Source: Haloterrigena salifodinae (GTDB lineage: Archaea; Halobacteriota; Halobacteria; Halobacteriales; Natrialbaceae). Taken from it: a stretch of DNA of 64,000 bases. A program made the translations under genes and the position numbers. Positions within the stretch are counted from its first letter, which is position 1, and every line of letters begins with the position of its first letter. Below are positions 44,319-55,645 of the stretch, piece by piece. A model generated the notes under the pieces. That model did no database searches, had not been told where the DNA came from, and worked only from the letters and a program-made list of their open reading frames with translations. The stretch covers positions 1,054,001-1,118,000 of the forward strand of contig NZ_RQWN01000002.1 in the NCBI RefSeq assembly GCF_003977755.1, read 5' to 3'.

Positions 44319-44933
44319 ATGAGCGATTCGGACGAGCAGGTCGAGCCTCGAGACACCCGAGACGTGATCATGGAAGCCACTTTTCGGGCGCTGAACGAGC
44401 ACGGCTACTCGGACCTGCGAGTCCGCGATATCGGCGAGGAGATGGACCTCTCGCGGCAGGTTATCCACTACCACTACGATGGGAAGTACGACCTCCTGTC
44501 GTCGTTTCTCGAGTACGTCATCGACCAGTACGAGGGGAGCGTCGAGGTCGACGCCGACACGGATCCGCGGTCGGAACTCGAGACGCGGATCGACCGCTGT
44601 CTGTTCGGGCCGGAGTTCGATGACTTCACCCACTGGGACCGGATGAAGGTGTACCACGAACTGTACGCCCACGCCCAGAACGACGAGGAACACCGGGAGC
44701 TGTTCAACGAGCACTACGCCCGGCTCCGCGGGAGTATCGTGACGGTCATCGAAGACGGCATCGAGCAGGGCGTGTTCCGTGAGGTGGACGCAGAACTGAT
44801 GGGACAGCACATCACCGACAGCATTCACGCGGCGCGAGAACGGCGGCTCTCGCTTGGGCACGAGGACGCGCCCGAAGAAGCGCGCCGGGCCATCCGCGAG
44901 TTCATCCTCGACTCGCTGTACCTCGAGTCATAG
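44319..44933 (+). CDS. TetR/AcrR-family transcriptional regulator
   Basis: A 204-residue repressor-type protein. The N-terminal helix-turn-helix is clear (VIMEATFRALNEHGYSDLRV, then GEEMDLSRQVIHYHYDGKYD), and the rest is an all-helical ligand domain (HWDRMKVYHELYAHAQNDEE). I chose the ATG at 44319 because a TATA-like TTTATGG lies 27 bp upstream. It is divergent from purL with 180 bp between; other targets are not evident. Confidence 0.88.
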   Translation: MSDSDEQVEPRDTRDVIMEATFRALNEHGYSDLRVRDIGEEMDLSRQVIHYHYDGKYDLLSSFLEYVIDQYEGSVEVDADTDPRSELETRIDRCLFGPEFDDFTHWDRMKVYHELYAHAQNDEEHRELFNEHYARLRGSIVTVIEDGIEQGVFREVDAELMGQHITDSIHAARERRLSLGHEDAPEEARRAIREFILDSLYLES

Positions 44934-45024: not shown

Positions 45025-45489
45025 TTAGCAATTCCCCCACGAGGGATTATCGTCTCTGAAAAGAATGTCTGTAACTTCCTCTTCGCATAGCAGAGAAATA
45101 TTGATACAATCACTGGGTTCGCTCTGCTGATCGTCATAATCCTCAGGCAGAGAGAACTGCTCTATCCGTTCCGTCCCCTGGGCGGTGAATAAAATCGTGT
45201 ATTGTGCGGGCTCAGACGGCCAGGATTGCTCAATGAGTTCGTAAGCACCCTGGTTAGATCCGTCATCGCTGTACCCGTCTAATTCGATCGTGTTCTGATA
45301 CACCGTCGTTCCGTCTCGGTCAAGTCGGAGTGTGAGTGCTACAGGGTCCCTCTGCAAGTTCTTGATCTCGATGTTCCCAACTTGGATTCCTGTTTCAGAA
45401 TTGAACGGGAGTTTCCCGGCACACCCAGCTACGCCGGCGATTCCCAGTGTCGCAAGAAGATGACGGCGGGACCCAGAGATATATTCCAT
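45025..45489 (-). CDS. AT-rich predicted lipoprotein, unknown function
   Basis: A 154-residue exported protein with a SRRHLLATLGIAGVAGCAG signal and lipobox. The mature part is a predicted beta-rich domain (GIQVGNIEIKNLQRDPVALT, VYQNTIELDGYS) with late cysteines (DCINISLLCEEE). Its DNA is visibly less GC-rich than neighbours and its codon use is different, a sign of recent transfer. A TATA-like box at about 45513-45521 supports the ATG at 45489. Confidence 0.65.
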   Translation of the reverse strand: MEYISGSRRHLLATLGIAGVAGCAGKLPFNSETGIQVGNIEIKNLQRDPVALTLRLDRDGTTVYQNTIELDGYSDDGSNQGAYELIEQSWPSEPAQYTILFTAQGTERIEQFSLPEDYDDQQSEPSDCINISLLCEEEVTDILFRDDNPSWGNC

Positions 45490-46262: not shown

Positions 46263-46280
46263 TTTTACCATCTGGTAAAA
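46263..46280. promoter_or_regulatory. Palindromic operator TTTTACCA-TC-TGGTAAAA
   Basis: A perfect 8-bp inverted repeat with a 2-bp centre, 31-48 bp upstream of the flavoprotein ATG at 46232. It overlaps the likely TATA element (TAAAATAC on the minus strand), an arrangement typical for a repressor site. A very similar site precedes the pirin gene. Confidence 0.65.
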
Positions 46281-46306
46281 CGCGATCGACGCGGGCTCGT
46301 CACTGC

Positions 46307-47065
46307 TTAGAGGACGAACGGACCGCGCTGCCGGATCGCTTCGCCGTGGGGTCGCCCCGAAACGGCGACGACGCGAAGCGTCCCGTCGCTCCGGAGGTCG
46401 ACGCTCCGCGCGTCGGTGACCGGGAGCACATCGCCCTCGGTGAACGCCGCCCCGTCGACCGTTCCCTCGCCGGCGACGCCGTAGAGGAATCCCGACCACC
46501 CGTCGGGGACGGTCCACGTCCACGCGTCGGCGACGGAGACATCCAAATATTCCATCGGCGTGCGGAGGTCGATCGGCGAGCCCTCGCCGATGACCGTCGT
46601 GATCGTCGTTCCGTCCTCGACGGACGTCGGGAGTTCGTCGGCCGTCGCGTCGACGTAGTCCGGTTCGACATCCTTCTCGGCTTGAGGCAGATTCACCCAG
46701 AGCTGGAGTCCGCTACAGCCCTGCCCGTCCGCGGGGAACTCGGAGTGACGGATGCCGCCGCCGGCCGTGATACGCATGGCGTCGTTCTCGTATGCGGTGT
46801 TCGCGACGCCAAGCGAATCCTCGTGTGCCATCCCGCCGTCGATCATATACGAGACGATCTCGAACCCGCGGTGGGGGTGCATCGGGAACCCCTCGTCGGG
46901 GTCGATGTAGAACCGCTCGAACAACACGAACGGATCGAGGTTGGACGGATAGCTGTTCGTCGGGAACGCGCGGTTCGAATTCACGCCCGTCCCGTGGCGG
47001 ACGACTTCCCCGGAAATCGGGCCATCTGGCGTTCCGTGGGACTCGGGTGAGACCATACCTGCCAT
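46307..47065 (-). CDS. Pirin-family bicupin
   Basis: A 252-residue cupin protein. The N-terminal cupin has the metal motif GFPMHPHRGFEIVSYMIDGG and later GGGIRHSEFP, and the second cupin holds GTTITTVIGEGSPIDLRTPM. Pirins include quercetin dioxygenases and redox-sensing regulators. The ATG at 47065 begins MAGMVSPESHG; longer in-frame starts would cross the operator palindrome at 47069-47084. It is controlled with the neighbouring flavoprotein, probably by the HxlR regulator upstream. Confidence 0.87.
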   Translation of the reverse strand: MAGMVSPESHGTPDGPISGEVVRHGTGVNSNRAFPTNSYPSNLDPFVLFERFYIDPDEGFPMHPHRGFEIVSYMIDGGMAHEDSLGVANTAYENDAMRITAGGGIRHSEFPADGQGCSGLQLWVNLPQAEKDVEPDYVDATADELPTSVEDGTTITTVIGEGSPIDLRTPMEYLDVSVADAWTWTVPDGWSGFLYGVAGEGTVDGAAFTEGDVLPVTDARSVDLRSDGTLRVVAVSGRPHGEAIRQRGPFVL

Positions 47066-47068
47066 TCG

Positions 47069-47084
47069 TTTACCGACCGGTAAA
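47069..47084. promoter_or_regulatory. Palindromic operator TTTACCG-AC-CGGTAAA
   Basis: A perfect 7-bp inverted repeat with a 2-bp centre lying 4 bp before the pirin ATG, so over the likely transcription start of a leaderless message. It shares TTTACC-N4-GGTAAA with the site at 46263-46280. The two sites flank genes next to the HxlR-type regulator, which is the likely binder. Confidence 0.6.
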
Positions 47085-47279
47085 ACCTGTCGGAGGTGGG
47101 GGTTTGCTGCGAGCACACTCGAGTCGCACCCGCTGAGAACACGATCGCTACCGAATCGGTACTGACTCCACTCGCGTGCGGAGCGGTCCGCACTGTTCAG
47201 GGACACAACTCGCTCGATCGGTAGGCTAGCCGGCCGTTGACCGGTCGGCAAAAGTGACGTTCTTGCTCGAAACGCTATC

Positions 47280-47639: not shown

Positions 47640-47776
47640 TCGCGTCGACTTTCGGCGCGGACCGCTTTAGCAGTTCGGGTTCGAACCAGCTAACACGACG
47701 TTAGTAGCTTCGGCGAGTGCACTCCACTGCCGGTGCCACCTGAAGAGATTATCCCGCTCGATCACTGAGGACCGAT

Positions 47777-55079: not shown

Positions 55080-55180
55080 ACCCCACGGTTCAAAGGAGAC
55101 GACAATAGGGTTTGCTCCACGGTTTCCGTTTCCGAAACGCGACTGGCCCCTTGAGAGCACCCGTGGGAAAACACTCCAGA

Positions 55181-55204
55181 GTAGTTTACTCCAGAGTAAA
55201 CTAC
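55181..55204. promoter_or_regulatory. 24-bp perfect palindrome GTAGTTTACTC-CA-GAGTAAACTAC
   Basis: Two 11-bp arms with a 2-bp centre, lying 28-51 bp before the ATG at 55232 and overlapping its TATA region. The half-motif ACTCCAGAGTA also occurs as a direct repeat at 55173-55183 and 55188-55198. Position suggests autoregulation by the winged-helix protein that follows. Confidence 0.65.
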
Positions 55205-55231
55205 TTTGCGGAGGGGTCCGTAGGGCCTTGC

Positions 55232-55645
55232 ATGAGTACCGACGTGGGCGCGGCCGACGGGGCAGCGGGGCGCGAACTCCTCCACTTCGTCACCCAGGAG
55301 ACCCGGTTCGCGATCGTCGCCAACATCCTTCAACACCCCGAGGGGCTGCCCTCGATGTATGAACTCGAGGAGCTGAATCCCAGCGTCAGCGACGCGACCG
55401 TCTACAAACACGTCCAGAAGCTGATCGACGCCGGGATCGTCGAGGCGGTCGCGCTGCCCGACGACGAGCGCCGGCAGGGCTATCCCTGGAAGTTCTACGG
55501 CCTGACCGACGAGGGCCGGGCGTTCCTCGAGCGACACAACCTGCTGCAGGCCGAGGCGACGCTCGAGCGGATTTACGGAACGATTTCCGATAAATCCGAG
55601 AAGATGGTCAAATACGAGAACGCGCCGCGTCCCAACCGAAACTGA
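55232..55645 (+). CDS. Winged-helix transcriptional regulator (ArsR/PadR-like)
   Basis: A 137-residue regulator. The winged helix spans residues 15-95 (FVTQETRFAIVANILQHPEG, then NPSVSDATVYKHVQKLIDAG and a wing FYGLTDEGRAFLERH). The C-terminal tail is short and helical. The ATG at 55232 follows a 24-bp palindrome, so self-control is likely. Targets beyond its own gene are not evident. Confidence 0.85.
   Translation: MSTDVGAADGAAGRELLHFVTQETRFAIVANILQHPEGLPSMYELEELNPSVSDATVYKHVQKLIDAGIVEAVALPDDERRQGYPWKFYGLTDEGRAFLERHNLLQAEATLERIYGTISDKSEKMVKYENAPRPNRN

Follow-up and report, generated by a model that had tools for sequence, protein, structure and literature searches.

Two palindromes stand at the promoters of a pirin gene and of a gene for a half-size flavoprotein in the 64,000-nucleotide stretch of Haloterrigena salifodinae DNA that was analysed here (the window), and the question raised by this locus is which protein reads them and to what effect. 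The original prediction regarded them as an operator shared by both genes and assigned it to the product of the HxlR gene next door, as part of a small redox or quinone response regulon. A check of the sequence places both palindromes, with the 16-mer TTTACC-N4-GGTAAA in common, exactly where they had been reported (Table 1), and comparison among genomes supports a predicted shared operator in promoter position that would unite pirin and the half-size flavoprotein in one small regulon. As for the regulator, we propose that both palindromes are operators of a TetR-family protein encoded in the same locus, acting as a ligand-released repressor of the pirin and flavoprotein promoters, and we put the probability of this reading at about 0.87.

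Table 1. Features of the locus, in window coordinates
Feature	Position	Strand	Remarks
TetR-family regulator, 204 aa; proposed cognate repressor	44319-44933	+	PF00440, PF13977
Half-size FAD protein, 186 aa	45672-46232	-	PF07992; like the FAD domain of thioredoxin reductase, without the NADPH domain
Operator 1 (predicted)	46264-46279	no strand	-47 to -32 relative to the ATG of the flavoprotein; with its flanks 18 bp long (46263-46280), TTTTACCATCTGGTAAAA / TTTACCATCTGGTAAA
Pirin-family protein	46307-47056 (alternative in-frame ATG at 47065)	-	PF02678, PF05726
Operator 2 (predicted)	47069-47084	no strand	TTTACCGACCGGTAAA; overlaps the probable pirin TATA element
Possible degenerate third operator	47237-47252	no strand	TTGACCGGTCGGCAAA; 2 mismatches; between the HxlR and pirin genes, upstream of pirin
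HxlR-family regulator, 119 aa	47280-47639	-	PF01638, 70.4 bits; probably not the binder of the 16-mer
Candidate HxlR operator, CTAAC-N5-GTTAG	47690-47704	no strand	50 bp upstream of the HxlR ATG

The motif is not scattered, a point for which a genome search had been suggested: its two exact copies in the window are the only ones in the whole genome (4.96 Mb in 11 contigs), where a reversed-pattern control gives none. With up to two mismatches the window holds four matches against 0.25 expected, and none of 100 shuffles reached four. The possible third operator is weakly conserved, a similar sequence being found in two close relatives only. Among 392 genomes of the order the exact motif occurs in 94, at 138 sites, whereas the reversed control occurs at 8 sites in 7 genomes. 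When the central spacer is restricted to RNNY and two mismatches are allowed, the genome of the window yields 13 sites against 11 for the control, so that no further targets can be claimed and the evident regulon in this species consists of just two promoters.

Inheritance of the site with a TetR gene

The proposed repressor, whose gene lies 0.7 kb beyond that of the flavoprotein, has an N-terminal TetR_N helix-turn-helix (36.5 bits, cut-off 24) and a C-terminal TetR ligand/dimer domain (34.5 bits, cut-off 27). The best choice of start codon is 44319, at which position most of the relatives listed have a Met and, after it, a short leader that is acidic or rich in Ser. The protein stays below both equivalog cut-offs of the choline regulator BetI (41.7 bits against 118, and 39.7 against 201.3). 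The closest solved chain by sequence is PDB 3crj ("Transcription regulator"; E 1.1e-26 over residues 12-195), which we take to be a TetR protein of Haloarcula marismortui, and the AlphaFold model of the window protein is poor, with a mean pLDDT of 51.9.

By protein search, orthologues of this TetR protein (at least 230 bits, the next group reaching 157 bits at most) are present in 121 of the 392 genomes, at 57-100% identity, and they travel with the site. The exact motif and the orthologue occur together in 80 genomes, TetR alone in 41, the motif alone in 14 and neither in 257 (p 1e-37). The association is sharper for TTTACC-RNNY-GGTAAA, which is found in 76 of 121 TetR-positive genomes and in 1 of 271 TetR-negative ones (p = 9e-48 by a Fisher test, which, like the previous one, ignores phylogeny and treats as independent genomes that are not). 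A count at the level of genera gives the RNNY site in 20 of 30 genera with the orthologue and in 0 of 65 without it (p 2e-13).

The spacer itself distinguishes the two groups of genomes: purine-N-N-pyrimidine is present in 112 of 124 sites in TetR-positive genomes and in 1 of 14 sites in TetR-negative ones. The remaining 12 and 13 sites, with other spacers, mostly look like another element or chance, and at least three of the 12 lie at promoters of the regulon described below, namely those of the flavoprotein (G080), of an aldehyde dehydrogenase/winged-helix pair (G272) and of an amidohydrolase (G088, locus L138). The sole RNNY site of a TetR-less genome (G186) is probably due to chance, since it is found between the genes of a NOG1-like GTPase and a thiamine gene.

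Upstream of the TetR gene itself the site is present in 32 of 78 distinct sequences; the other 46, that of the window included, have none within two mismatches, and there is consequently no sign of autoregulation in the window. For the flavoprotein, 44 of the 392 genomes are listed with an orthologue at 75% identity or more, and every one of the 44 also has the TetR orthologue; relatives at E 1e-40 are found in 360. The flavoprotein paralogue, where listed, is 70-74% identical over its length, and no site was seen by eye in any of the eight paralogue upstreams shown. A second copy, 70% identical, at G000:C1:141972-142526, has an upstream region (L164) without the operator.

Predicted target promoters in the window and in relatives

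Pirin carries the Pirin (73.7 bits) and Pirin_C (42.4 bits) cupin domains, both above the cut-off, and matches human-type pirin chains at E 4e-41. The flavoprotein falls below the thioredoxin reductase equivalog cut-off (97.8 bits against 343.45), TRX_reduct aligning best over profile positions 2-111 of 300; its nearest solved chains, 2cvj/2ywl ("thioredoxin reductase related protein", 180 aa), are half-size like it and cover residues 1-177 of 186 (E 5e-19), and we presume them to be a Thermus thermophilus protein. Between the TetR and flavoprotein genes a short open reading frame (45025-45489) has a signal-like start with a Cys and no match in Pfam or NCBIfam; to judge from its sequence, the product is perhaps a lipoprotein.

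The placement of the two palindromes had been described as one over a TATA box and the other over a start site, and this description needs to be corrected in part. Site 1 does occupy a promoter position, but it lies directly upstream of an AT-rich element near -28 and not over a TATA box. Site 2 is indeed near a possible start, 3 bp upstream of the in-frame ATG at 47065; however, 47056 is the likelier start, because an ATG is present at that position in 24 of 26 distinct pirin upstreams and at the 47065 position in 5 (the pirin promoter profile was filtered for an ATG at 47056, and the starts were counted again without that filter). Counted from 47056, site 2 spans -28 to -13 and its left half coincides with the T-rich element of the pirin promoter (-29 to -25). 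These T-rich and AT-rich elements stand, relative to the start codon, where the TATA box of a leaderless haloarchaeal transcript is expected.

In relatives the arrangement is maintained with a fixed spacing. A site within two mismatches precedes the flavoprotein gene in 48 of 49 distinct upstreams, the gap to the ATG being 31 bp in 47 of the 48 and the single exception (L167) being a fragment of the paralogue. At pirin, 24 of 26 distinct upstreams have a site within one mismatch, and 20 of the 26 have it at the position seen in the window, 2-3 bp before the codon matching 47065. An amidohydrolase gene divergent from that of TetR has a site within two mismatches 34-35 bp before its start in all 42 distinct upstreams (31 from motif-bearing genomes and 11 from genomes chosen for lacking the exact site). 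Composition-shuffled upstreams reach two mismatches in 0.26% of 2340 trials. The bases flanking the sites are little conserved, except for the AT-rich element near -28 of the flavoprotein promoter and, in the amidohydrolase promoter, TTTTA at -33 to -29 and a stretch around -27 to -14. Amidohydrolase promoters, for example that upstream of 6592 in L080, have another conserved stretch, approximately TGGTCAAAC, which follows the TATA element at -22 to -14 and could be an extra half-site.

The raw promoter counts are biased, as many loci were fetched for carrying the motif, and two subsets are fairer. Loci fetched by the flavoprotein alone (L031-L048) have the site upstream of 17 of 18 flavoprotein genes and of 13 of 14 pirin genes. 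The second subset (L099-L118) represents 20 of the 41 TetR-positive genomes from which the exact site is absent; there a degenerate site is found in all 11 amidohydrolase upstreams and all three flavoprotein upstreams, in two of four for pirin and in one of two for aldehyde dehydrogenase. Five of these 20 regions (L100, L102, L103, L111 and L113) have no site within one mismatch, L102 and L103 having two-mismatch sites at the flavoprotein and amidohydrolase genes; no site within two mismatches is present at pirin in L102 and L113, nor at the aldehyde dehydrogenase in L110.

The set of genes preceded by the site changes between lineages. Many genomes have the TetR gene divergent from that of the amidohydrolase with the site in between, and a gene of the FAH hydrolase family often follows the amidohydrolase; 2 of 26 FAH-family promoters have an exact site and the other 24 none within two mismatches, which suggests that the FAH gene is co-transcribed with the amidohydrolase or is not a direct target. 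One large genus of family f5 has the site before a CoA-transferase gene near that of TetR, followed by a thiolase gene in the one case scanned (L080), and also before an aldehyde dehydrogenase/winged-helix gene pair that is unlinked. In other genomes the genes for aldehyde dehydrogenase, pirin and flavoprotein form a cluster. Far from the TetR gene, the site is found at aldehyde dehydrogenase/DUF7347-DUF7351 gene pairs (L083-L090). Second pirins also have it (L134-L136), and two genomes (G113 and G247) keep a degenerate site at a flavoprotein gene unlinked to TetR. Such unlinked targets speak for recognition of the sites in trans and against mere inheritance with a neighbour. In L083-L090 the DUF7347/DUF7351 winged-helix gene is divergent from that of the aldehyde dehydrogenase, and the site lies 12-13 bp before its start, which suggests a regulatory cascade.

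On this basis a mechanism can be outlined in which a TetR dimer would bind TTTACC-RNNY-GGTAAA at the flavoprotein and pirin promoters. The bound dimer would cover or abut the BRE/TATA element, blocking TBP/TFB and thus repressing transcription, and it would be released by a small molecule, probably some intermediate in the breakdown or detoxification of the compound on which the regulon acts. The same TetR protein might instead act as an activator at site 1, drawing in TBP/TFB from a position immediately upstream of the BRE. This possibility is suggested by the fact that site 1 ends 31 bp and the amidohydrolase site 34-35 bp before the ATG, beside the TATA element and not over it. At pirin, the second pirins and the DUF7347/DUF7351 gene, however, there is overlap between the site and the T-rich element or start region, as fits repression, and most of the TetR-family members investigated are repressors, according to a study (PMC3511530) that also names AtrA, an activator, as the one exception among nine tested; we therefore regard activation as unlikely. 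That study also states that a streptomycete regulator of the TetR type most likely regulates a divergent gene from which it is separated by less than 200 bp, mostly as a repressor (PMC3511530).

The HxlR neighbour and other explanations

If HxlR were to bind both palindromes and run a redox or quinone regulon, as initially envisaged, the proximity of its gene would be meaningful, and some HxlR-type regulators do sense redox state. The protein is a genuine member of its family and is weakly similar to the NCBIfam models RrpB and RrpA (55.5 bits with a cut-off of 175, and 29.7 bits with one of 185). The distribution of the gene speaks against this assignment, which we judge very improbable: HxlR is present in 360 of the 392 genomes, with or without the motif, and the motif in 94, so that the 16-mer is not co-inherited with it; and among the loci examined HxlR adjoins pirin and flavoprotein genes only in the genus of the window. 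Another genome of that genus (G240) represents a "natural deletion", in which HxlR is conserved at 92-95% identity together with the far-side homologues of RNase H and of a polyketide-cyclase-like protein, with no TetR orthologue, no exact motif and neither pirin nor flavoprotein beside HxlR; the closest relative of the flavoprotein in the whole of that genome ranks with the paralogue (E 1.9e-72). At this locus (L091) a 1071-aa open reading frame lies beside the conserved HxlR gene where the TetR-flavoprotein-pirin cassette is absent.

The promoter of HxlR also differs. The 16-mer is found within two mismatches in 0 of 7 distinct HxlR upstreams, and HxlR promoters mostly carry another inverted repeat, CTAAC-N5-GTTAG, an exact copy of which stands in 6 of the 8 distinct upstreams that were scanned (7 of 10 of those listed, by eye). 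The repeat, with GGTTCGAACC or a variant of that sequence after it, recurs before HxlR in the family. It has one exact copy in the genome, that upstream of HxlR; the reversed control also gives one. HxlR thus probably regulates itself through a sequence other than the 16-mer, and on these grounds, together with its presence irrespective of the motif, it was rejected as the binder.

Elsewhere in the window, a perfect 12-bp inverted repeat, AGTAGTTTACTC-CA-GAGTAAACTACT (55180-55205), lies just upstream of a PadR/HTH_20-like gene (approximately 55232-55645, with Pfam matches slightly below the cut-off) and is probably an autoregulatory operator. In six genomes of family f1 a 16-mer site with a spacer other than RNNY is located about 4-12 kb from the HxlR gene, and these sites are perhaps the same element as that repeat.

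A third candidate binder is the winged-helix DUF7347/DUF7351 protein, whose gene has an exact site in 9 of 9 distinct upstreams, all nine loci being from regions chosen for the motif. We consider it highly improbable, since the protein has no match at E 1e-60 in the genome of the window, for which it was rejected, nor in G252, G329 and G374, all with exact sites; at the same threshold it is present in 243 of 392 genomes, and copies at 68-70% identity occur without the exact motif in six of them (G049, G062, G070, G075, G123 and G143). Finally, archaeal promoters commonly have a T-rich TATA element, but that the palindromes are a chance or promoter-sequence artefact of AT-rich TATA regions is hardly credible given two exact sites in 4.96 Mb, both here, 138 sites against 8 in the control across the order, and a site that is conserved while its flanks diverge.

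Relation to known systems and biological meaning

The TetR regulon proposed here is of a known kind, and as a regulon it is new and well supported; searches of the open-access content of PubMed Central brought up no description of it among the papers listed. TetR repressors of divergent enzyme genes resemble it in their TetR_N domain and, as in many relatives of the window, in a palindrome between the regulator and a divergent enzyme gene. They differ in that the promoter is here an archaeal BRE/TATA promoter instead of one with -35 and -10 elements, and in that the TetR gene of the window does not diverge from the genes proposed as its targets and lacks an operator of its own within two mismatches. 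The boxes of two E. coli members of the TetR family, RutR (TTGACCA-N2-TGGTCAA) and NemR (TAGACC-N4-GGTCTA), have the core ACC-N4-GGT in common with the 16-mer of the window. Neither regulator is among the ten NCBIfam models matched by the window TetR protein, and their target genes differ. RutR binds a palindrome of about 16 bp, similar in length to that of the window, and represses the rutAG operon, according to one study (PMC10891134).

Taken at face value, the enzymes encoded by the wider regulon (amidohydrolase, CoA-transferase with its thiolase neighbour, and aldehyde dehydrogenase) point to the breakdown of a small organic compound more than to a redox or quinone response, and suggest that this breakdown passes through an aldehyde and CoA esters; that pirin and the flavoprotein are oxidation enzymes of the same breakdown is speculation. 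Tentatively, and with considerable doubt, we would extend this to a TetR switch that controls, across much of the haloarchaeal order, a single, so far unrecognised pathway of catabolism or detoxification, the pieces of which have been redistributed among lineages, with amidohydrolase and CoA-transferase/thiolase in some and pirin, the flavoprotein devoid of an NADPH domain and aldehyde dehydrogenase in others, pirin and flavoprotein then performing one oxidation step on the inducer substrate.

The locus also illustrates a common annotation trap, in which the regulator next door is probably not the right one. With the present analysis a haloarchaeal TetR-type protein gains a concrete candidate operator and a testable list of targets, and two poorly understood proteins, the archaeal pirin and the half-size thioredoxin-reductase-like flavoprotein, gain a regulatory context.
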